Source of the DNA: Opitutaceae bacterium
Lineage (GTDB): Bacteria; Verrucomicrobiota; Verrucomicrobiia; Opitutales; Opitutaceae
DNA length: 64,000 nucleotides
Reading direction: 5' to 3'
Assembly (NCBI GenBank): GCA_030693515.1
Contig: JAUYAK010000022.1
Span: 60,345 to 124,344 of the forward strand
Below the pieces are notes generated by a model. It had not been told where the DNA came from. It worked only from the letters and a program-made list of their open reading frames with translations, and searched no databases. Position numbers and translations under genes: made by a program. Below, piece by piece: positions 27,858 through 40,964 of the stretch (within the stretch, counting starts at the first letter, position 1; each line of letters starts with the position of its first letter).

Positions 27858-28406
27858 ATGCCACCCCACACGGATCAGGCGAAATGGTTTGCCGCTGAAG
27901 TCCATCCCCACGATGCGCAGCTGAAGGCGTATCTGCGCGGCGCGTTTCCCACTGTGCGCGACGTGGACGACGTGGTGCAGGAGTCGTATTTACGCATGTG
28001 GCGCGTGCGCGCCGAAGGGCCCATCCGTTCCGCGCGGGCCTTCCTGTTCACCGTTGCGCGGCGGCTGGCGATAGACGGGGCGCGGCGCTCCATCGCCTCG
28101 CCCATCGATGTGGTGGAGGATTTGGCCGGACTGCCTGTGGCCGATGAGACGGCGGATGTCGCGGGAGAAACGGAGAACCGCGAGCGCGTGGCGCTGCTCG
28201 CTGAGGCGATCGGTCGGCTGCCGAACCGCTGCCGCGAGGTTTTTCTCCTCCACAAGATCCATAGCCTTTCGCGCCGCGAAACGGCGGAGCGTCTTGGGCT
28301 CGCCGAGAAAACCGTCGAGGTCCAAACCGCGCGGGCGATGGATCGTTGTGGTGAGTATTTGCGGCGGCGTGGCGTTACGGGGCTTTTTTCCGATGAGCGC
28401 GCCTGA
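27858..28406 (+). CDS. ECF sigma factor (FecI-like), cassette 1
   Basis: LKAYLRGAFPTVRDVDDVVQESYLRMW; ARAFLFTVARRLAID; LPNRCREVFLLHKIHSLSRRETAERLGLAEKTVE. Confidence 0.88.
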   Translation: MPPHTDQAKWFAAEVHPHDAQLKAYLRGAFPTVRDVDDVVQESYLRMWRVRAEGPIRSARAFLFTVARRLAIDGARRSIASPIDVVEDLAGLPVADETADVAGETENRERVALLAEAIGRLPNRCREVFLLHKIHSLSRRETAERLGLAEKTVEVQTARAMDRCGEYLRRRGVTGLFSDERA

Positions 28407-29268
28407 CCAGCAACCGGAGAACACCCGTGCCGCGGAGGAGGCGCTGCGCTGGATGCGTGGCGCGCAGGCCGAGGCGGCGCTGGTGGCGGAGGTGGGCCGG
28501 GCTGTGCGGGTCCGGCGGCGGCGTTTAACCAGGCTGGCTGGCGCGATCGCGGTGGCGATGGGACTCGGGCTTTTCGTTGGCCTAAACCGGGACCCGGGGG
28601 CGCCAGGCGCCCCGACGGCCATCGTCACCGAACCGCGTCGCCAGATTTTGCCGGACGGATCGGTTGTGGTCCTGCGCGACGGGGCGGAGATTGCGGCCGA
28701 TTTCTCGCCGCTGGCGCGGCGTGTGGCGCTGCGGCGGGGGGAAGCGCACTTCGATGTGGTGAAGGATCGGGCGCGGCCTTTTGTCGTGACGGCCCAGGGG
28801 GTGGAGGTGCGGGCGGTGGGCACGGCATTCTCCGTCGGTCTGGGCGGAGGCGCCGCCGTGGAGGTGCTGGTGACGCATGGGCGCGTGGCGGTGGAGCCCG
28901 AGGCCAAGGCTGCGGCGCTCGTCGATGCGGGGCAGCGCGCCCTCGTGCCTTCGGCCGGGGCGGCGGCCGAGGTGAGTGTGCTTTCCGCCGCGGAAATGGC
29001 CGAGGCATCCGCTTGGCGCGTCCCGCAGATCGAGTTTTCCCGCACGCCGCTCACGGAGGCGGTTGCCCTGATCAACGCTCGCCTCACCACCGCGGGCCAG
29101 CGCCGCATCGTCGCCGATTCGGCGGACGCGGGGCTGCGCGAGCTGCGTTTGAGCGGCTATCTGGCGGCCGACAACACCGAGGGTTTCCTGCTGCTGCTCG
29201 AGAGCAACTTTGGCATCCGCGCTGATCGCGGCGGGAACGGAGCGATTGTCCTGCGTTCGCAGCGCTGA
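28393..29268 (+). CDS. FecR-family anti-sigma regulator, cassette 1
   Basis: RRQILPDGSVVVLRDGAEIAADFSPLARRVALRRGEAHFDVVKDRARPFVVTAQGVEVRAVGTAFSV typical FecR core; C-terminal STN/DUF4974-like segment. Confidence 0.88.
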   Translation: MSAPDQQPENTRAAEEALRWMRGAQAEAALVAEVGRAVRVRRRRLTRLAGAIAVAMGLGLFVGLNRDPGAPGAPTAIVTEPRRQILPDGSVVVLRDGAEIAADFSPLARRVALRRGEAHFDVVKDRARPFVVTAQGVEVRAVGTAFSVGLGGGAAVEVLVTHGRVAVEPEAKAAALVDAGQRALVPSAGAAAEVSVLSAAEMAEASAWRVPQIEFSRTPLTEAVALINARLTTAGQRRIVADSADAGLRELRLSGYLAADNTEGFLLLLESNFGIRADRGGNGAIVLRSQR

Positions 29269-29326: not shown

Positions 29327-29332
29327 CCTATT

Positions 29333-32300
29333 ATGCCCCCGTCGATTCGACCCGGCGCTCCTTGGCGCTGGGCGTTTACCCTGCTTGTGGCTGGCTTGTG
29401 CGCCTCGGTGCTGTCGGCGGCGGTCCCGCTGCGGCGGAATTTTGACCTGCCGGCGGGCCGGGCGGAGCCGGCGCTTAAGCGCCTCTCGCAGCAGGCCGGG
29501 GTGCAGCTGGTGTTTGACAGTCGGCTCGTCGACGACGTGACCGTCAATGCGGTGCGGGGTGAATTCACGCCCTTGGAGGCGGCGCAGCGGCTGCTGGCCG
29601 GCACGGTGCTGCGGGCCCGGCGCGACGAACAAAGCGGCATCCTCAGCGTGGAGCGGGAGCCGACGCCACCATCCGAAAAAAAAGCCCCGGCGCGCGCTGA
29701 TTCTCCGCCGGCCACGCGCGCCGCGACCGAGGCCGGTAATCTTTCGCCCGAACCCAACCAACCCCCCAACCCCTCGCCCATGAAATCCCCCCGCACCCTG
29801 CTTGCCGCCTTGGCCGGCTGGCTTGCCACATCGAGCGCCGCCGTGGCCCAGACGACACCCCCCGCTGCTCCGGCTAGAGACGACTTGGTCCAGTTGTCGC
29901 CCTTCGAGGTGGCTTCGGACAAGGACAACGGCTACGCCGCGAGCGGCACCCTGGCCGGCACGCGTTTGCGCACCGAACTGCGCGATGTCGCTGCCTCGAT
30001 CTCCGTCGTGACGAAGCAATTTATGGATGACATCGGCGCGACCAAACTTGATGACCTCCTGACTTACACCCTCGGCACCGAGGCGGCCGGCTTGGGCGGC
30101 AACTTCAGCAACCACGGTTTGGACGGCAACTTCACCGACGTCATTTCCGGCCTGCGCGGCGCGCAAGGGGCGACGCGCGTCCGCGGCATCGGCAGCGCGG
30201 ACCAAACGCGCGACTTCTTCATCACGAGCACGGCGATGGACGGCTACAACACCGAGCGCGTCGAAATCAACCGCGGCCCCAATGCCATCCTCTTCGGCCT
30301 CGGCAACGCCGCCGGCATCATCAACACCGGCCTCATCAAGGCGCAGACCAACCAAACCAAGACCAAGGTGGACGCCCAATACGGACAGCACGAGACACAC
30401 CGCCTCTCCCTCGACCACAACCAGGTCCTGATCAAGGATCGCCTGGCCCTGCGCATCGCGACGCTCTACGGCGACAAACGCTATCAACTCAAGCCGGCCT
30501 ATGTTCGCGACGAGCGAGTCTTTGCGACCGCCACCGCGCGGCCCTGGAAGGGCGCCGCGCTCCGGGCCAACGTCGAACATGCGAAGCAGTTTTCCAACAA
30601 AGCCTACAACTCCACGCCCACCGACAACATCACCTGGTGGTGGGCGCTCGGAAAACCAGTCTACGATCCCACCACCGGCGTGGCGACCTACTTGGGGACG
30701 ATGCCCTCGGATCCCAACCTCCGGCCGATCACGGCCACGGGTGGCTTGAACACTGGCCTCATCGCCGGATTCTCGCAGAAGCCGCTCTTGATTCAGGAGA
30801 ATCCGGACGTCACGCGTTTCGGTATCACCGGCCTGAGTCCCTCTGTTCAGGCGATCGAAGGCTTCAACAATCGCGTCCGCCTGAACGCCGCCGGCAACGC
30901 CTATGTGAATGACGGCCTGCGGATGCTCCAGTCTTCCAAGAACTATGTCCAACGCCTCTATCAGTCGAGCAGCCCGGCTTCTTTCAACTTCTGGAAGGAC
31001 GAGAAGCTGACCGATCCCTCGATCTTCAACTTCTACGATCAGATGCTCGAGGGCCCCAACAAACGGGAATGGGCGTTCTTCAAATCCTACAATGCCAGCT
31101 TTGAGCAGCGCCTCGGTGCGAATGCCGGCGTCGAGGTCTCGTTCTTCAAGGAGTCGTTGCGCAACGGCCACGTTCAGCCCTTTCAATTTCGTAATCACGC
31201 CATCAACATCGATATCAACACCAAGTTGCCGAACGGACTCCCGAACCCGAACCTGGGTCGCCCCTTCATCACCTCGGCCGACGGCTTTGACAATTCCCCT
31301 GAATCCGAGCGCGAAGCGTTCCGGGCGACGGCCTACTACGATCTCAATTTCGCTCGCACCAAGAAGGACGGCTGGCTGTGGAAAGCGCTCGGCCGGCATG
31401 TCTTCACCGGTTCGTTCACGAACCAGAAGGCGGAGAGCGCCAGCTATGGCGGGCGCAATCATGCCCTCGGGCTCGACTACTGGAACGCGGAGTCGGTCAA
31501 TGAACCCAGGACGATTGCGTTGGATAGCGGCAACCGGTTCCTCCAGCGGACTTCCTACATCGGGCCCAGCCTGCTCACCGCGGCCAGCCCCCAGAACGGC
31601 GGCCTCCGGGGCGTCACCGCCAACAACAGCCTCGATGGAGCGAACAGCGTCAACGTGCTCTATTTTCAAGCACCCGCCGCCACTCCGGTGTCCCAGGCCC
31701 AGATACCGCAGTTTCAGAACCGCTCTTTCAGCCTCATTCCGAAGGACAAATATAATTTCAGCAACGTCACGATTTTCCCCAATCGGAGCGCCGACAAGGT
31801 CGAGTCGTCCGTCTTCGTCGCCAACAGCTACTGGTGGGACAACACCCTAGTGAGCACGCTCGGCTGGCGCAAGGACGCCTTCAAGACCTTCACGGCCCCC
31901 GCGTCCCTCACCGATCCCGCCACGGGGCTGAAGATCGTCGATAAGAGCGTTTGGAAATGGACCGCTCCGGCGCTCGATAGCTCCGAGTCGTCTTTCTCCT
32001 ACGGCCTGGTGTTGCACCAGCCGTCGTTTCTCCGGGGCAAGCTGCCGCTGGGCGCCGACGTGTCGCTGACCTACAACGTGTCCGACAACTTCCGGCCAAG
32101 CTCGCCGCGCTTTGATTTCTTCGGCAATCCGATCGCGGCGCCGACCGGATCAACCAAGGAATGGGGTGCGCTGATCTCGTTGTTCAACCGGAAGCTCGAG
32201 CTGCGTTTCACCAAGTATGAGACCATCGCGTCGCTCGCCACCGCCACGGCCCTGCGCGAGCCGCAAAACGTGATTGTGCGCCGCCTTGATTCCCAAATCG

Positions 32301-33139
32301 AACTCAATTCCGATCCCGTTTATCGGGCCGCGGCTTCGCCGGCGGCCCTCGCCGCGTGGAATACGTGGCAGCAGGGCGCGGACGCGCAGCGGCTCTTCAA
32401 GACCTTCGACTTCCGCTTCTCTCCGGGACCGAACGGCACGACGATCGTCGATCGCGACGACCGGATCGGCACCGTGGTGGGCACCACCGACATCGTCGGC
32501 ACGGGCTACGAATTCGACGTCACTTACAATCCCCTCCGGCAATGGCGCATCTCCTTCAACGCCGCCCGCCAGGACGCGGTCTCAGGCAACACCGGCGCCG
32601 CGTTTGTGCGGATGCTCGCTGCGCTTCAGCCGATCTGGGGCGGCTCCGCTGCTGCGCTTCCGGACTCGGCGACCTCTGGCAATACCCTCGGCCAGGCCTT
32701 TGCTCAAGTGAAGGCCGACGTGGACAAGGCCGTGCTGCTGGACGGATCGCCTTCGCCCGAGCTGCGCCGTTGGCGATTCAACGCCGTCACCAACTACTCG
32801 TTCACCGAGGGACGGCTCAAAGGCTGGCGCGTCGGCGGCTCCGTGCGCTGGCAGGATCGCGCGGCGATCGGCTACCCGGTGAGAATCCTGCCCGATGGCT
32901 CCGGCGTGTTTGACGTCACGAAACCCTACTTCGGTCCCAAGGAGACCAACGTCGACGGTTGGATCGGCTACAGCCGCAAGCTGACCGACAAAATCCGCTG
33001 GAGCGCGCAGCTCAACGTGCGCAACATCGGCGTCGGCAACCGTCTGATCCCGGTGAACGCCCAGCCCGACGGCACCTACAACACGATGCGAATCGCCGAG
33101 CCGCAGACTTGGCTGCTCACGAACTCGTTTGAGTTCTAA
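29333..33139 (+). CDS. TonB-dependent receptor with N-terminal STN domain, cassette 1; in-frame internal start with a second signal peptide at 29780
   Basis: STN-like FDLPAGRAEPALKRLSQQAGVQLVFDSRLVDDVTVNAVRGEFTPLEAAQRLLAGT; plug VVTKQFMDDIGATKLDDLL, VEINRGPNAILFGLGNAAGIINT; C-terminal ...WLLTNSFEF beta-strand ending in F. Confidence 0.88.
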   Translation: MPPSIRPGAPWRWAFTLLVAGLCASVLSAAVPLRRNFDLPAGRAEPALKRLSQQAGVQLVFDSRLVDDVTVNAVRGEFTPLEAAQRLLAGTVLRARRDEQSGILSVEREPTPPSEKKAPARADSPPATRAATEAGNLSPEPNQPPNPSPMKSPRTLLAALAGWLATSSAAVAQTTPPAAPARDDLVQLSPFEVASDKDNGYAASGTLAGTRLRTELRDVAASISVVTKQFMDDIGATKLDDLLTYTLGTEAAGLGGNFSNHGLDGNFTDVISGLRGAQGATRVRGIGSADQTRDFFITSTAMDGYNTERVEINRGPNAILFGLGNAAGIINTGLIKAQTNQTKTKVDAQYGQHETHRLSLDHNQVLIKDRLALRIATLYGDKRYQLKPAYVRDERVFATATARPWKGAALRANVEHAKQFSNKAYNSTPTDNITWWWALGKPVYDPTTGVATYLGTMPSDPNLRPITATGGLNTGLIAGFSQKPLLIQENPDVTRFGITGLSPSVQAIEGFNNRVRLNAAGNAYVNDGLRMLQSSKNYVQRLYQSSSPASFNFWKDEKLTDPSIFNFYDQMLEGPNKREWAFFKSYNASFEQRLGANAGVEVSFFKESLRNGHVQPFQFRNHAINIDINTKLPNGLPNPNLGRPFITSADGFDNSPESEREAFRATAYYDLNFARTKKDGWLWKALGRHVFTGSFTNQKAESASYGGRNHALGLDYWNAESVNEPRTIALDSGNRFLQRTSYIGPSLLTAASPQNGGLRGVTANNSLDGANSVNVLYFQAPAATPVSQAQIPQFQNRSFSLIPKDKYNFSNVTIFPNRSADKVESSVFVANSYWWDNTLVSTLGWRKDAFKTFTAPASLTDPATGLKIVDKSVWKWTAPALDSSESSFSYGLVLHQPSFLRGKLPLGADVSLTYNVSDNFRPSSPRFDFFGNPIAAPTGSTKEWGALISLFNRKLELRFTKYETIASLATATALREPQNVIVRRLDSQIELNSDPVYRAAASPAALAAWNTWQQGADAQRLFKTFDFRFSPGPNGTTIVDRDDRIGTVVGTTDIVGTGYEFDVTYNPLRQWRISFNAARQDAVSGNTGAAFVRMLAALQPIWGGSAAALPDSATSGNTLGQAFAQVKADVDKAVLLDGSPSPELRRWRFNAVTNYSFTEGRLKGWRVGGSVRWQDRAAIGYPVRILPDGSGVFDVTKPYFGPKETNVDGWIGYSRKLTDKIRWSAQLNVRNIGVGNRLIPVNAQPDGTYNTMRIAEPQTWLLTNSFEF

Positions 33140-33286: not shown

Positions 33287-34708
33287 ATGAAACGTCCCCA
33301 CCCTACCCGGCGCGATTTTATCCGTGCTTCCGCCGTCGCCACGCTCGGCTTCCACATCCTCCCCGCTTCGGCGCGCGGCGCCAACGGTCGCATCCAAGTC
33401 GGTTGCATCGGGGTCGGCGGCAAGGGGTATGTCGATATGATGGCCACCGCCGAAGCCGGCGCTGAAATCGTCGCGCTTTGCGACGTGGCCAACCCGCGCA
33501 ATCCCGAGCTGGGTCGCCGCAAGAAATCCAAGGGCGCCGGCGACACCGTGCTCGACCGGTTTCCCGCCGCGAAGTTCTTCACCGACTACCGCGAGATGAT
33601 CGCCACGGTGGACGGCATCGACGCCGTCACCGTTTCGACGCCCGACCACCACCACTTCCACGCGTCGATGCTCGCGATGCGGAAGGGCAAACACGTTTAC
33701 TGCCAGAAACCGATCTCACACTCGATCTGGGAGGCGCGGCGCCTCGCCGAGGTCGCCGTGCAGACCAAGGTGCAAACGCAGATGGGCAACCAGGCCCACG
33801 CCGGCGAACCCATCCGGCGCGGCGTCGAGCTCATCCGCGCGGGTGTGCTCGGGCGCGTCACCGAAGTCCACGCGTGGACCAATCGTCCTATCTGGCCGCA
33901 GGGCATGAAAGAGTGGCCCCAGGCCGAGCCGGTGCCGAAGGGCCTCGACTGGAACCAGTGGATCGGGCCCGCGCCGTTTCGCGACTACAGCCCCGCGATC
34001 ACGCCGTTCAACTGGCGCGGCTATTGGGATTTTGGTGCCGGCGCCCTCGGCGACATGGGCTGCCACATCATGGACATGCCCTACTGGGCCCTCGGCCTCA
34101 CGTCGCCCACCTCCGTCGATAGTTGGCACGAGGGCGGCACCGCGATCGCCGCCCCGCATCGCTCGACGATCACCTATCAGTTTCCCACGAGCATCCTCGG
34201 CGGGCCGGTGAAATTCATGTGGTATGACGGCGTCGTCGCCAAGGAAGGCCGCTACCTCAACGCCCCGCCCGAGGCCTTGTGGAAAGATGATTTTCCCACG
34301 GCCGATCACGTGTTCCGCCGCTTCGACCTCGTGCTGGTCGGCGAAAAGGGCCGCATGTTTTTCGGGCGCTCGCGGCAGGACTGGGTCTTCAAACCGGAAT
34401 CGATCGGCACCGGGTTCCCTGCGCCGCCGAAGACCATCGCGCGCGTCCCGGGCGGCACGCAGGACGGCAAAGGCGAAGACGGTGGCGGCCCCTACGTCGA
34501 GTGGCTCGGCGCGATCAAGACGGGCACGCCCGCGCTCTCGAACTTCGCCGCGTCGGGCCCGTTCAGCGAAACCGTGCTTCTCGGCAACCTCGCCCTGCGC
34601 CTCGGCCAACGCGTGGAGTGGGACGCGAAAAATCTCGTGGCGAAAGGCGCCCCCGAGGCCGCGCCCCTCATCCGCCGCGCCTACCGCAAAGGCTGGGAAC
34701 TGGCCTAG
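33287..34708 (+). CDS. Gfo/Idh/MocA-family oxidoreductase with Tat signal
   Basis: TRRDFIRASAVATLGFHILPASARGA twin-arginine leader; IQVGCIGVGGKGY; DGIDAVTVSTPDHHHFHASMLAMRKGKHVYCQKPISHSIWEARRL. Confidence 0.9.
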   Translation: MKRPHPTRRDFIRASAVATLGFHILPASARGANGRIQVGCIGVGGKGYVDMMATAEAGAEIVALCDVANPRNPELGRRKKSKGAGDTVLDRFPAAKFFTDYREMIATVDGIDAVTVSTPDHHHFHASMLAMRKGKHVYCQKPISHSIWEARRLAEVAVQTKVQTQMGNQAHAGEPIRRGVELIRAGVLGRVTEVHAWTNRPIWPQGMKEWPQAEPVPKGLDWNQWIGPAPFRDYSPAITPFNWRGYWDFGAGALGDMGCHIMDMPYWALGLTSPTSVDSWHEGGTAIAAPHRSTITYQFPTSILGGPVKFMWYDGVVAKEGRYLNAPPEALWKDDFPTADHVFRRFDLVLVGEKGRMFFGRSRQDWVFKPESIGTGFPAPPKTIARVPGGTQDGKGEDGGGPYVEWLGAIKTGTPALSNFAASGPFSETVLLGNLALRLGQRVEWDAKNLVAKGAPEAAPLIRRAYRKGWELA

Positions 34709-34866
34709 GCCGCCGGCCAAATCGTGCCTTGCCCCGAAGTCTAGAGACGCAGCCTCCGGGCTTTTGGGTTATCGTCGGCGGAAAATAGTTTTCGCTCGGG
34801 GGTTTGGCCGAAAATCCCCTCGACACACTGCGTCGGCAGACGGATGCCTTTGCCTCGCATCGCCCC

Positions 34867-35424
34867 ATGCCCCCGTCCGAACAAGCCCGTTGGTTTACCG
34901 AGGAAGTGCAGCCCCATGAACCGGCGCTGCGGGCTTACTTGCAGGCGCGTTTCCCGACGCTCTGCGATCACGACGACCTGGTGCAGGAAACTTACACGCG
35001 CCTGCTCCGGGCGCAGGCCGCGGGCGGGGTGCGCTACCCGAAGGCGTTTCTCTTCACCGCCGCGCGCAACGCCGCCTTCGATCTTTTCCGACGCCGCGGG
35101 GCGAAGCCGACCGAGACGGTGACGGACTTGGTCGAGCTTACGGTCTTGGAAGACCGGCCCGGGGTGGGGGAGCAGCTCGACCAAAGCTACGAACTCGAAG
35201 TGCTCGCCGACGCCGTGCGTGCGCTGCCCGATCGCTGCCGCCAAGTCATCATGCTCCGCTACCTCGACGGACTCGCCTACAAAGAAATCGCCGTGCAACT
35301 CGGCATCTCGGCCGAGACCGTGAAGGTGCACATGGCAAAAGGTATGCGGCGCTGCGCCGCGTTTTTCGCGGACCGCGGGCTGTTGGAGATCGCGCCGCCG
35401 ACGGCAGGGGAGGCTACGCCATGA
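34867..35424 (+). CDS. ECF sigma factor (FecI-like), cassette 2
   Basis: LRAYLQARFPTLCDHDDLVQETYTRLLRAQ; PKAFLFTAARNAAFDLFRRR; LPDRCRQVIMLRYLDGLAYKEIAVQLGISAETVKVHMAKGMRRC. Confidence 0.9.
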   Translation: MPPSEQARWFTEEVQPHEPALRAYLQARFPTLCDHDDLVQETYTRLLRAQAAGGVRYPKAFLFTAARNAAFDLFRRRGAKPTETVTDLVELTVLEDRPGVGEQLDQSYELEVLADAVRALPDRCRQVIMLRYLDGLAYKEIAVQLGISAETVKVHMAKGMRRCAAFFADRGLLEIAPPTAGEATP

Positions 35425-36497
35425 GCGACTCGCTCGACCACGACGATCCGATCGAGGAAGTCGCTTCGAACTGGTTGACCGAGCGCGCCGAGGGTTTTTC
35501 GGCCGCGCAGAAGCGCGAGTTCGAGCGCTGGTGCCGCGCCGATTCGCGCCACGCCGCCGCGGTCACGCGCTTGGAGGCCGCGTGTGTCCTGCTCGAAAAA
35601 ATGCCGCTCGTGCGCGCGGAGTTGCAGCCCGTGGTGGAGTTTCCGGTGAAGCCGCGCGTGATTGCAGCGGGGAAGAAGTTTCCGATCATTCGAATCGCCT
35701 TGGGCCTCGCCGCTGCGGTGGTGCTCGCCTCCCTCGGTTGGTGGCAATGGGCGCGTCCGCAACCGTCCGCGCAGGTCTACGCGACCTCGGCCGGCGGCTA
35801 TGAGCGCGTCGTGCTTGCCGACGGCTCGCTCGTGGAACTAAACGCCAATTCCGAAGTGCGCGTCGAGCTGTTGCCGAACGAGCGCCGCGTTGCCCTCGTG
35901 CGCGGCGAGGCGCACTTCACCGTGGCGCACGACACGGCGCGGCTGTTCATCGTGTCGGCCGGCGGCGTGGCCGTGCGCGCGGTCGGCACGGCATTCAACG
36001 TGCGCCTCGCGACCTTCGCCGTCGAGGTGCTCGTCGCGGAGGGAAAGGTGGCCGTGTCCGAGGTAGGGCCGGCCCCCGCCGTCGGGCCGTCGCGCGGCGC
36101 GCCTGACCTTCGCAGCGGCCGGCCGACGAGCGGCGGGCCGACATTTTTGGTCGCCAACGAGCGCGCGCTCATCGCCACCGCACCGCCAAAATCCCCGTCC
36201 GCCGCGCCCGCGCCCGTCGTGGAAAAAATCGCGCCCGAGGTCCTGCGCGAGGCGCTCGCGTGGCAGGAGCGCAAACTCGTGTTTGCCGAGACGCCGCTGC
36301 GTGAGGTCGTGGCGCAGTTCAACCGCCGCAACCGCCTCCAGCTTCTCCTCGGCGATCCGGCCCTCGCCGAGCGGCCGGTGGGCGGCACGTTCGCGGTGGA
36401 TAACGTCGAGGGTTTCATCCGCCTGCTCGAGGGCAGCGGCACGATTTCGGTCGATCGCCGCGGTGATTTTACCGTTGTGCTGCGGGCGGCGCGCTGA
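35421..36497 (+). CDS. FecR-family anti-sigma regulator, cassette 2
   Basis: DUF4880-like N-terminus ASNWLTERAEGFSAAQKREFERWCRADSRHAAAVTRLE; FecR core ERVVLADGSLVELNANSEVRVELLPNERRVALVRGEAHFTVAHD; ATGA overlap with the sigma gene. Confidence 0.9.
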   Translation: MSDSLDHDDPIEEVASNWLTERAEGFSAAQKREFERWCRADSRHAAAVTRLEAACVLLEKMPLVRAELQPVVEFPVKPRVIAAGKKFPIIRIALGLAAAVVLASLGWWQWARPQPSAQVYATSAGGYERVVLADGSLVELNANSEVRVELLPNERRVALVRGEAHFTVAHDTARLFIVSAGGVAVRAVGTAFNVRLATFAVEVLVAEGKVAVSEVGPAPAVGPSRGAPDLRSGRPTSGGPTFLVANERALIATAPPKSPSAAPAPVVEKIAPEVLREALAWQERKLVFAETPLREVVAQFNRRNRLQLLLGDPALAERPVGGTFAVDNVEGFIRLLEGSGTISVDRRGDFTVVLRAAR

Positions 36498-36524
36498 CCC
36501 GCCCCGCGCGGCCGGCGAAAAAAC

Positions 36525-39218
36525 ATGCGCGCGACGATAACCCATTTCGTCCGCCGCCTCGTCTCAGGAGCGCTCCCACTGCTCTTGTTGATGAACCCCC
36601 TTATCCCCACCGGTGCGGTCGCGGTCGCGACCGTCTGTTGTTTGGCCGGCGCCACCGCGTCCGTCCAAGCCGGTGAAGCCGCGCGCAAACGCTTCGACAT
36701 CGCGCGCGGGGATGCGGCCGGCACGCTGAAACGTTTCGCCGAAGAATCGGGTCAACAGGTGGTCTATCTGGTCGATGCCGTCCGCGGCATCACGACCAAC
36801 CCAGTGCGGGGCGATTACACCGTGCGGGAGGCGCTGCGTCGCCTCGTCGCCGATACCGGACTGGTCGTCGTGGAGGACGTGAAGTCGGGGGCTTTGCTGG
36901 TGAACCGTCTCGTTCCCGAGGCGCCGCCGCCAAAACCCAACCCACCGACCACCATGCTCGTCCCCATGAAAAAATCCCTGCCTGCCCGTCTCACCGCCTT
37001 TTTTGCCGCTCTCGCCGCGTCTTCGCTCGCCGCCCAAACGACCCCGGCTGAATCCGAAACGATCAAGCTCTCCCCCTTCGAGGTCAGCACCAGCCAGGAC
37101 CGCGGCTATCGCGCCAGCAACTCCATCGGCGGCACCCGCGTGAACACCCCGCTGAAGGAAGTGCCGATGAACATCCAGGTCGTCACCGAGGAGTTCATGC
37201 GCGACATCGCGGCGTTCGATGCCTCGGAGTCGTTGAAGTTTCAGGCCGGCGTGGAGGTCGGCTCGCGCGACGGCGACCGCGACACCGCCGTGACCATCCG
37301 CGGCTTCGGCACGACGTGGCAGATGCGCGAGGGCTTCCGCCGCTACGACACCTCCGACAGCATCAACATCGCGCGCCAGGAGGTCGTCGCCGGGCCCGCC
37401 GCCGTGCTCTACGGCATCAGCCAGCCGGGCGGCATCATCAACTACATCACCAAGCGCCCCACGCGCGGCACCGGCGTCGAGCTGCGCCAGGTCGTCGGCT
37501 CAGATGGCCTGTTCCGCTCGGAGGTCGATGTGAATTACGCGCCCGCGGGCCCCCTCGCGCTCCGCCTCCTCGGGGCGCACACCAAGGCGGATGGTTTCCG
37601 GGATTATGAGCGCGTGAAGCGCACGTTTGTCGCGCCCATCGCCGTTTACCGCCTCGATGCGGCCACCACCTTCACGGTCGATATCGAATACATGAAGCAG
37701 GACCGCGGCTTCACCCATAACAAGCTGCGAGACGTCTCGCTCACCGCGACCGGCGGCACCGTCAACCTCCCGAGCTTCCTCAGTGTTCCGCGCGAGCAGC
37801 AATGGACCGGCCCCGACACCGTCCATACGAACGACGTGACCAACCTGCTCTTCGTCGCCGACCATAAGTTCTCGGAAAATTTCTCGGTCAACGCCGCGTT
37901 CAATTCGCTCGAACGCACCCAGCAGCGCACGACCCAGACCCACCGCGGCCTCGCGCTCGCCGCCCTGCGTGATCGCAACGGCGCGCTCGTCCTCGATGCC
38001 AACGGCGCCCCGATCAAGGCGCTCCGCACCCTCTGGGCCAGTGACAACAATCAGAATTGGATGTGGCAGGCGCGCGTGGACGGGGTGTTGAAATTTGATG
38101 TCGCCCAAGTCCCGCAGACCCTGCTCACCGGCTTCAATTTTGCGAAGGACACCAACTACCGCATCCTCTTCGAGGACCGGAATCCGGACCTGCGCAACGG
38201 CGTGGACAACCTCGCCCAAAATTTCCGCTACTACACCGTCGGCACGCGCCGCCCCAATCTCCGCATCGGCAATGCCGACTACAATCCCGTGAACTGGGCG
38301 CGCCCTCAGCTCCACTACCGCGATCCGATCGAGCTCACTTCCTACTACGCGAACCATCAGGCCAAACTCCTCGGCGATTCGCTCTTCACGCTCGCGGGCA
38401 TTCGCTTCGATAAAAACGACTATTCGCGCAAGTGGCAGACGCGCCGCACCGGCCAGAACGATGTCGTCAACTCCGTCACCGACAAGTGGAGCCCCAACTA
38501 CGGTCTCCTCTACCGCCCGATCCCGTGGGTCTCCGTGTATGCGCTCAGTTCCGAATCGCTCGAGCCGCGCAACGGCTCGACCAACAGCTTCGGCGTCAAC
38601 CTCACGCCCTCGTTTGGCAAGAGCATCGAGGCCGGCCTGAAACTCGAGGCGTTCGACGGGCGCGTGTCGGCGACCTTCAGCGCCTACCGCATCAAAAACA
38701 AAAACCTCCCCGTCACCGATCCCACGATCCCGAATGCCAACGGCGGCCTCGGCGACGTGATCCAAGTCGGCGAGCAGACCTCCGAAGGCTACGACTTCAC
38801 CGCGTTTTTCTTTCCGGTGAAGGACTGGCAGATCACCGGCGGCTGGTCCTACGTGGACACGTTTATCAGCAGCGACACGAACCGCGCGAACCTCGGCCGC
38901 AATTTCTCCAACCTGCCCTACAACCGCTTCACGCTGTTCACCAGCTATCGTCTGCCCGGCGGCTGGACGATCGGCGGCGGCGCGCTCCACACGGGCGAGA
39001 TCGACCGCGGGTGGAACGACCCGATCACGAATCTTCCCGTGCAAAACGACCGCTACACGACCTTCGACGCCTTCGCGCGCTACGAGTTCAAGCTGTCCGC
39101 CAACCACCGCTGCGCGCTGTCGCTCAACGTGCTGAACTTCTCCGACCAACAGGATCGCGGCGGCGGCGAGTGGATCGTCGGCCGCACCTACCGGCTCACC
39201 GCGGGCGTGCGGTTTTGA
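36525..39218 (+). CDS. TonB-dependent receptor with N-terminal STN domain, cassette 2; in-frame internal start with a second signal peptide at 36966
   Basis: STN-like FDIARGDAAGTLKRFAEESGQQVVYLVDAVRGITTNPVRGDYTVREALRRLVADT; plug VVTEEFMRDIAAFDASESLKF, VVAGPAAVLYGISQPGGIINYITK; C-terminal YRLTAGVRF. Confidence 0.9.
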   Translation: MRATITHFVRRLVSGALPLLLLMNPLIPTGAVAVATVCCLAGATASVQAGEAARKRFDIARGDAAGTLKRFAEESGQQVVYLVDAVRGITTNPVRGDYTVREALRRLVADTGLVVVEDVKSGALLVNRLVPEAPPPKPNPPTTMLVPMKKSLPARLTAFFAALAASSLAAQTTPAESETIKLSPFEVSTSQDRGYRASNSIGGTRVNTPLKEVPMNIQVVTEEFMRDIAAFDASESLKFQAGVEVGSRDGDRDTAVTIRGFGTTWQMREGFRRYDTSDSINIARQEVVAGPAAVLYGISQPGGIINYITKRPTRGTGVELRQVVGSDGLFRSEVDVNYAPAGPLALRLLGAHTKADGFRDYERVKRTFVAPIAVYRLDAATTFTVDIEYMKQDRGFTHNKLRDVSLTATGGTVNLPSFLSVPREQQWTGPDTVHTNDVTNLLFVADHKFSENFSVNAAFNSLERTQQRTTQTHRGLALAALRDRNGALVLDANGAPIKALRTLWASDNNQNWMWQARVDGVLKFDVAQVPQTLLTGFNFAKDTNYRILFEDRNPDLRNGVDNLAQNFRYYTVGTRRPNLRIGNADYNPVNWARPQLHYRDPIELTSYYANHQAKLLGDSLFTLAGIRFDKNDYSRKWQTRRTGQNDVVNSVTDKWSPNYGLLYRPIPWVSVYALSSESLEPRNGSTNSFGVNLTPSFGKSIEAGLKLEAFDGRVSATFSAYRIKNKNLPVTDPTIPNANGGLGDVIQVGEQTSEGYDFTAFFFPVKDWQITGGWSYVDTFISSDTNRANLGRNFSNLPYNRFTLFTSYRLPGGWTIGGGALHTGEIDRGWNDPITNLPVQNDRYTTFDAFARYEFKLSANHRCALSLNVLNFSDQQDRGGGEWIVGRTYRLTAGVRF

Positions 39219-39401: not shown

Positions 39402-40964
39402 TCAGCGGGGGAGTTGAGCGAAGCGCTGGGGCGTGAACTCGTGGGCGGTGTGATTGGTGGCGGCGGCCAGGCGGGGCAGGGCCCAGGTGAGGTAGCTCCA
39501 TTCGTTGAGACCGAGGAGCTTGCAGGTGCCAAGAATCGAATAGAGGACGGCGGAACGCCAACCGGCGTCGGGATGGCCGATGAAGAGATAATTTTTTTTG
39601 CCGACTGCGCAGACGCGGATGGCGTTCTCGACGGCGTTGGAATCGATGTGCACATGCCCGTGATCGGGCTCGGCGAAGCGCGTCAATTCCGGCCAGCGTT
39701 GGAGGGCATAGTGGACGGCCTTGGCCAGTGCACTGTGCGGCAGGATCGCCGGATCGACGGCCGCTTTCATCAGGGCTTGGTGCATCGGCACGAGCCAGGC
39801 GGTCGAGCGGGTGCCGCGCGTCGCAGCCCGGAGTTGCGGGGTGGCGTCGCGCAGTTCCGCTTCGATGCGGTAGAGGGCGCCGAGATAAGCCAGAAACGGC
39901 GCGGCCCGTTCGTCGCCGGCTTCGAGGGCCTCGACAAACCCGCGGCGGCCATGCGCCAGGCAATTGGCGTGGACAATCTGTTGGCGTCGGTCGGCGGGCA
40001 ACAACCGCAGCGCCTTGAGGTAGCCGGCGTAGCCATCGCTCTGGAACACGCCGGCAAACTGGCGCAGGAACGCGAGCGCCGGCTCATGACTGCGCGTCAG
40101 TTGAAAGTCGAAGACCACGACCTTGGCCCCCGGCGCCAGGAACGTCCACAGCCACGCTTCCCGCGCGGCCCCGGGCCGGGCCGGATCCAACACCCGGATC
40201 GGCGTCTCATCGCCGATGGCATAGGCGCTCTGCTGCACCGCTCTTTGCAGTTGGGCATACACCGGCCGAAACAAATTGGCCGCGTGCTCGACCCACTGGC
40301 CCATGGCCTGGCGGGTAAACGCCGGCCCGAGGCGCTCGAGCATTGCCTCCTGGCGATAAAGCGGGATCGCATCGACATACTTCGAGAGCACGACGTGGGC
40401 GATCAGGCCAGGACCGACCTGGCCGCCGGGGATCACGCGCGCCGGCAAGTCCGCCACCTGCGGTGCGCAGCCATGCGCGGGGCTGGCATATACCGGCCGG
40501 ATGATCTGACGGCGGAACAATTTGCCAGGCTGATAATCGACCTCGTCGGTGATCTCCTCCCTGATCTTGACCAGCGGCGTGCCATCCGGGGCGAGCTTGG
40601 CGGCGGCGGGCAGATCGAGCGTGATGGTCTCAAGGACGGGCAGATCCTCCAGGCGCTGGGCGCGGCGCACCGAGGGCGCCCGCGGGCCGCGCGCCACCGG
40701 CGGTGGCGCCGGTGGCGGTGGCGGCACGCTCGCCTGGTCGGCCACGACCGACTCCCAGGCCAGCGCGAGCTGGTTGGGATCGATTTTCTCCGACGAGCGC
40801 CCGAAGTAGCGCTTGAGCAGGGCCTGCAGTTTGGCCTTCGCCGCGTCGCGCTCCAAGGCGGTCTGCTCCAGCAAGCCCCGCGTCGCGGCATGGGCTGCGC
40901 GCTCCGCCCGCAGGAGCTTTTGCAGCTCAGCGGGATTGGCGGGCAGGACCTCGTTCATATCCAT
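39402..40964 (-). CDS. tnpC: IS66-family transposase TnpC
   Basis: KRYFGRSSEKIDPNQLAL; ADLPARVIPGGQVGPGLIAHVVLSKYVDAIPLYRQEAMLERLG; CLAHGRRGFVEAL; DSNAVENAIRVCAVGKKNYLFIGHPDAGWRSAVLYSIL. Confidence 0.95.
   Translation of the reverse strand: MDMNEVLPANPAELQKLLRAERAAHAATRGLLEQTALERDAAKAKLQALLKRYFGRSSEKIDPNQLALAWESVVADQASVPPPPPAPPPVARGPRAPSVRRAQRLEDLPVLETITLDLPAAAKLAPDGTPLVKIREEITDEVDYQPGKLFRRQIIRPVYASPAHGCAPQVADLPARVIPGGQVGPGLIAHVVLSKYVDAIPLYRQEAMLERLGPAFTRQAMGQWVEHAANLFRPVYAQLQRAVQQSAYAIGDETPIRVLDPARPGAAREAWLWTFLAPGAKVVVFDFQLTRSHEPALAFLRQFAGVFQSDGYAGYLKALRLLPADRRQQIVHANCLAHGRRGFVEALEAGDERAAPFLAYLGALYRIEAELRDATPQLRAATRGTRSTAWLVPMHQALMKAAVDPAILPHSALAKAVHYALQRWPELTRFAEPDHGHVHIDSNAVENAIRVCAVGKKNYLFIGHPDAGWRSAVLYSILGTCKLLGLNEWSYLTWALPRLAAATNHTAHEFTPQRFAQLPR

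Follow-up and report, generated by a model that had tools for sequence, protein, structure and literature searches.

In the window, i.e. the whole 64,000-nucleotide stretch of Opitutaceae DNA analysed here, there are two operons of the FecR type, each encoding a TonB-dependent receptor with an STN domain. The second operon encodes an ECF sigma factor, a FecR anti-sigma factor, whose gene overlaps the sigma gene by 4 nt, and the receptor of principal interest, receptor 2; receptor 1 has the same design. The features are as follows.

28243..29268, forward strand: FecR-like anti-sigma factor upstream of receptor 1 (Pfam FecR)
29330..33139, forward strand: receptor 1
29414-29656, forward strand: STN domain of receptor 1
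34804..35424, forward strand: ECF (FecI-like) sigma factor, 206 aa (Pfam Sigma70_r2, r4 and r4_2)
35421..36497, forward strand: FecR anti-sigma factor, 358 aa (Pfam FecR above the cut-off; DUF4880 and FecR_C slightly below)
36525-39218, forward strand: receptor 2 open reading frame, 897 aa
36525..36674, forward strand: first start of receptor 2 (ATG 36525) and first signal peptide
36675..36917, forward strand: STN signalling domain (Pfam match below the cut-off, profile matches to PDB signalling domains, AlphaFold model)
36918..36965, forward strand: A/C-rich linker, also the putative leader of the internal start
36966..37034, forward strand: internal start (ATG 36966) and second signal peptide, MKKSLPARLTAFFAALAASSLAA, with a putative cleavage site before the following Q
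37035..39218, forward strand: TonB-dependent receptor body, comprising an LSPFEV segment, plug and barrel (Pfam Plug, TonB_dep_Rec_b-barrel)

A Gfo/Idh/MocA oxidoreductase gene (33290-34708, forward strand) lies between both receptor operons, and an oxidoreductase-like frame is also found upstream of an STN-less receptor of the family (L169). Immediately downstream of receptor 2 is an IS66-family transposase gene (39402-40964, reverse strand; Pfam PF03050, E 7e-76).

The plug (PF07715, residues 210-304) and β-barrel (PF00593, residues 412-871) of receptor 2 score above their Pfam cut-offs, and its STN match (residues 78-115) reaches 23.4 bits, below the cut-off of 28.4. A profile of 12 STN segments matches PupA, FpvA, PupB, FoxA, HasR and FecA (E 2e-9 to 7e-4), and the AlphaFold model of the receptor 2 domain (pLDDT 88.7) resembles FpvA and PupB with TM scores of 0.83-0.87. 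By these profile matches and its predicted fold, the N-terminal module is an STN domain. Together with the plug and barrel and the adjacent ECF sigma factor and FecR genes, it places receptor 2 among the STN-type TonB-dependent transducers. FecA, FpvA, FoxA, PupB and HasR are alike in STN fold, plug, barrel and neighbouring ECF sigma factor and FecR, but in them a short linker joins the STN to the plug, whereas here a full second start and signal peptide lie in between. In receptor 2 the Pro-rich stretch PPPKPNPPTTMLVP is followed by a complete signal peptide, MKKSLPARLTAFFAALAASSLAAQ, that begins at ATG 36966, 147 codons downstream of ATG 36525. In receptor 1 the internal ATG (29777) lies 149 codons after the first start and heads the signal peptide MKSPRTLLAALAGWLATSSAAVAQ. 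The sequence-only reading had described both the paired signal peptides of receptor 2, the second placed after the STN, and these two distances, and the open reading frame, Pfam matches and translation bear it out. The near-equal spacing, which it had pointed out, was rejected as a clue, as the distance between starts varies from 119 to 159 codons (median 134) over 30 loci, a range set by the length of the STN plus linker. The nearby ATG 36954 (MLVP) was rejected as the second start of receptor 2: L174, a close relative, has TLVP at that site, which leaves 36966 as the conserved start. The internal start and second signal peptide of receptor 2 are kept in L174, L176, L177 and L179.

The design recurs across the family. 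The source genome contains 30 STN matches, weak to strong, and individual inspection of its 22 fused STN receptors revealed an internal signal peptide in 13 and none in 9. In other genomes of the family, 17 of 78 receptor-type STN loci carry one, and later cases were found at L139 (its second STN), L141, L143, L166, L167, L168 (where the STN is missing because of a contig edge), L170, L174, L176, L177 and L179. Beyond the source genome, at least 27 loci have the feature; as counted by genus codes, they represent about 12 genera of this family, and the named records are Opitutaceae/Opitutae MAGs. Within this class, FecR lies upstream in 29/31 loci. A search for relatives with receptor 2 alone returned none, and one with an alignment of L017 and L022 found named relatives. 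Twelve plasmid-borne proteobacterial STN receptors, the only group outside the family tested, have no internal signal peptide (0/12), and strong matches outside the family in a phylum-wide STN search have secretin-like lengths. The survey bears out the earlier suggestion that the architecture is a recurring one, not limited to the source genome; a sequencing or assembly artefact, already considered unlikely from two receptors, is excluded by its recurrence at about 40 loci in at least 15 genomes. We found no description of an internal start plus signal peptide of this design in the open-access papers searched. Carboxypeptidase-regulatory-like linkers (L052, L058, L077 and L088) also gave hydrophobic hits in the scan, which were judged not to be signal peptides and were left uncounted. 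Plug-domain matches in the source genome number at least 150 (from scoring 150 of 190 candidates), which makes its set of TonB-dependent receptors very large for 6.6 Mb.

Several properties of the nucleotide sequence indicate that the internal ATG looks like a working ribosome start. The hydrophobic-core scan used to find internal signal peptides imposed no start-codon requirement, yet the codon at their head is ATG in 28/30 loci and GTG in the other two (L102 and L118). Since ATG, GTG and TTG make up 4.8% of codons in comparable linkers, this is more than chance; a start codon also heads the signal peptide at each of the later loci (L139, L141, L143, L166-L168, L170, L174, L176, L177 and L179). 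The 30 nt upstream of the internal starts have a G fraction of 0.118, close to the 0.122 measured where 18 STN-less receptors of the source genome begin, as compared to 0.28 at other in-frame ATGs and 0.33 in linkers that have no signal peptide. The minimum free energy (MFE) of the region from -30 to +30 follows the same order, with values of -3.3 kcal/mol at internal starts, -5.6 at STN-less starts, -16.3 at in-frame ATGs and -21.6 in linkers lacking a signal peptide. When synonymous codons were resampled with the protein sequence fixed and the codon usage of each locus retained, the G content proved lower (0.118 observed versus 0.204 expected, p=6e-9) and the structure more open (-3.3 versus -8.6 kcal/mol, p=4e-9) than expected, a significance that comes from the whole set, whose members are partly non-independent. 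For receptor 2 alone, whose linker has a G fraction of 0.10 over its last 30 nt, the test is only suggestive (p=0.10 for G; MFE of -3.1 versus an expected -7.2 kcal/mol, p=0.07). A low G content and open structure beyond synonymous expectation show that the nucleotide sequence itself is selected as a region for initiation, over and above the demands of the protein; both the second start codon and its context are under selection. Shine-Dalgarno-like motifs are rare at internal and STN-less receptor starts alike, and the receptor 2 linker has none; this agrees with the reported scarcity of such motifs in Verrucomicrobia (PMC10783764). The first starts are more structured than the internal ones (-11.5 versus -3.3 kcal/mol, p=6e-6), and that of receptor 2 has an MFE of -16.8 kcal/mol.

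These features bear on two other ways in which a short receptor could arise. In one, it would be translated from a separate transcript that begins at a promoter within the STN coding region, and not from the long mRNA through an internal start. Such promoters are generally possible and those of the phylum are poorly known, but no sigma-70-like promoter was found in 36400-37100, the selected features are located at the start codon itself, and the second start would be used under this reading too; we consider it quite improbable. A scan for RNA families was empty. In the other, the long form would be exported and cut by signal peptidase at the second signal peptide, and this cleavage by itself would account for the design by setting the STN free in the periplasm and leaving a receptor without it. 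The second signal peptides do carry AXA-type sites, the STN is a separate frame in the two split loci described below, and in P. aeruginosa the two bands of FoxA fit loss of the signalling domain, which blocks signalling when overproduced (PMC11637429). However, cleavage requires neither a start codon nor a G-poor, unstructured mRNA nor synonymous selection, all of which are present, and nine STN receptors of the source genome lack the internal signal peptide altogether. As the sole explanation, cleavage is very improbable.

Receptors lacking the STN start at the same place. L173 of genome G055, the closest orthologue of receptor 2 (67% identity across residues 135-897), carries no STN; its first codons, ATG-AAA, fall at the position homologous to 36966, and a LacI-like regulator, a family assigned by eye from sequence, lies divergently upstream. 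Similarly, L169, an orthologue of L017, lacks the STN and begins with GTG at the corresponding site, behind the oxidoreductase-like gene mentioned above. On a tree of receptor bodies, which was built by a quick method and has long branches, the feature undergoes 18 changes of state, of which strong branches force 13, and the bodies of L002 (without the feature) and L065 (with it) are nearly identical. This scattered distribution, together with the near-identical bodies, suggests that whole receptor genes have repeatedly acquired STN modules, and that the class apparently arose many times by in-frame joining.

The reading frame and the linker reveal what has been retained after joining. STN and receptor are in frame in 31/33 inspected loci, the exceptions being the split loci L011 and L085. 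The excess over one third has p = 4e-13 if the loci are independent, or (1/3)^13 = 6e-7 when only the forced independent changes are counted; the loci were partly picked by their long open frame, but those listed with short frames were also examined and counted. Because selection on the receptor alone would leave the frame relation free, this argues that the fusion is selected. The long frame is also under selection in L017, L166 and L167, where STN (88-93% identity, dN/dS 0.13-0.18, a sign of purifying selection) and plug/barrel (88-93%, dN/dS 0.08-0.13) are conserved; the signal peptide is about 60% identical, and the linker is 24-44% identical with a dN/dS of 1.1-1.5. Although this linker evolves freely, the ATG-AAA start, low G content and open structure are kept. 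This weighs against the idea of an internal start and signal peptide that persist as unused remnants, undecayed only because STN modules keep recombining onto whole receptor genes and each fusion is young. Frequent module swapping on the tree and the near-identical bodies of L002 and L065 are in its favour, and a decayed remnant does exist. At L142 (G054:C393, reverse strand), a signal-peptide-like stretch has no start codon and follows a structured linker (G fraction 0.37-0.43, MFE -28 to -29.5 kcal/mol); it is, to judge from its sequence, a remnant in which start codon, low G content and open structure were lost together. Yet among about 40 loci there is no intermediate that has lost the start codon alone, and three relatives keep the start and its context in a linker changed at most residues. 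We regard the vestige as unlikely.

We favor in-frame dual initiation, to which we assign a probability of roughly three in four: a fusion of an STN module to a whole receptor would produce both an STN-bearing transducer and an STN-less transporter from one gene. The sequence-only reading had raised dual initiation as a possible switch between the two forms. Dual initiation is now strongly, if indirectly, supported by the start codon, the open and G-poor region, the synonymous selection and the STN-less orthologues that start there; a regulated choice between the starts is conjectural. Within the class, selection acts on each of the two modules and at either end of the design. In this mechanism, an STN module with its own start and signal peptide would have been joined in frame upstream of a whole TonB-dependent receptor gene of the STN-less kind, which kept its leader, start codon and signal peptide. 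On the FecI-FecR-receptor transcript, ribosomes would then have two in-frame places to begin. The first (36525), in a structured region, would give the long STN-receptor that is predicted to communicate with FecR, and the second (36966), which is open, G-poor and lacks a Shine-Dalgarno motif, would give a receptor without the STN that uses the second signal peptide for export. As the first start is more structured than the internal one, more of the short form than of the long form is predicted. Both products would be made, with the more abundant short form supplying transport capacity without excess signalling domain, and a few transducers among many plain transporters would fit the block on signalling that an excess of that domain causes in P. 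aeruginosa. Against dual initiation, ribosomes elongating from the first start could occlude the second, and the reading does not account for intact export of a long form that has a hydrophobic signal peptide in its interior. It is conceivable, if doubtful, that the second signal peptide has a double duty, serving the short form while also offering signal peptidase a cleavage site in the long form, with release of a free periplasmic STN and a receptor.

The split loci offer a related arrangement. At L011 (G000:C77:1740-4892, reverse strand), the STN is its own open reading frame between FecR and the receptor, with its TGA stop a few nt upstream of the receptor ATG and in a different frame (CCCGTGAAAACTATGAAATCC). 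A second case, L085, was found among the inspected short frames and likewise has a separate STN frame between FecR and the receptor. As read from their sequences, these two loci show that a separate STN frame is tolerated. They are comparable to VreA of the P. aeruginosa PUMA3 system (PMC2729926), in which the STN resides in a periplasmic protein that has no barrel; however, VreA has a TolA/TonB-like C-terminal domain, whereas the split STN frames stop after the linker and adjoin their own receptor. Two further arrangements were observed: tandem STN genes at L139/L144 (G008:C288), where a lipoprotein-like STN frame of 165 aa precedes an STN receptor with an internal signal peptide, and an orphan STN frame of 131 aa at L140 (G057:C300:1157-4158, reverse strand), which is followed by a sigma-factor-like frame and has no receptor directly downstream.

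P. aeruginosa FoxA is apparently present both with and without its signalling domain, which has been attributed to periplasmic proteolysis, with CtpA as the proposed protease (PMC11637429). The predicted outcome here is similar, with both receptor forms in one cell, but the short form would be encoded in the gene as an internal start. If the second signal peptide does have a double duty, it would be a genetically encoded counterpart of the proposed release of the FoxA signalling domain, with L011 and L085 as the fully separated form. Bacterial genes with two in-frame starts are known to give N-terminal proteoforms, such as those of ClpB and SsaQ (PMC11005335), which are alike in producing a long and a short protein from one frame. 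Unlike these, each form predicted here has its own export signal, and both would be envelope-bound and differ by a whole signalling domain.

Cell-surface signalling is usually pictured as the work of a single receptor that both transports and signals. In this family, one gene apparently encodes a signalling and a non-signalling receptor, and does so repeatedly across many genera. As gene callers report only the longest frame, the second product would be hidden, and an open, G-poor leader that lacks a Shine-Dalgarno motif and lies within a coding region may serve as a signature for finding dual-start genes in phyla poor in such motifs. The design also makes it testable whether the signalling domain must stay attached to the barrel, and how its dose is kept low when the receptor is induced.
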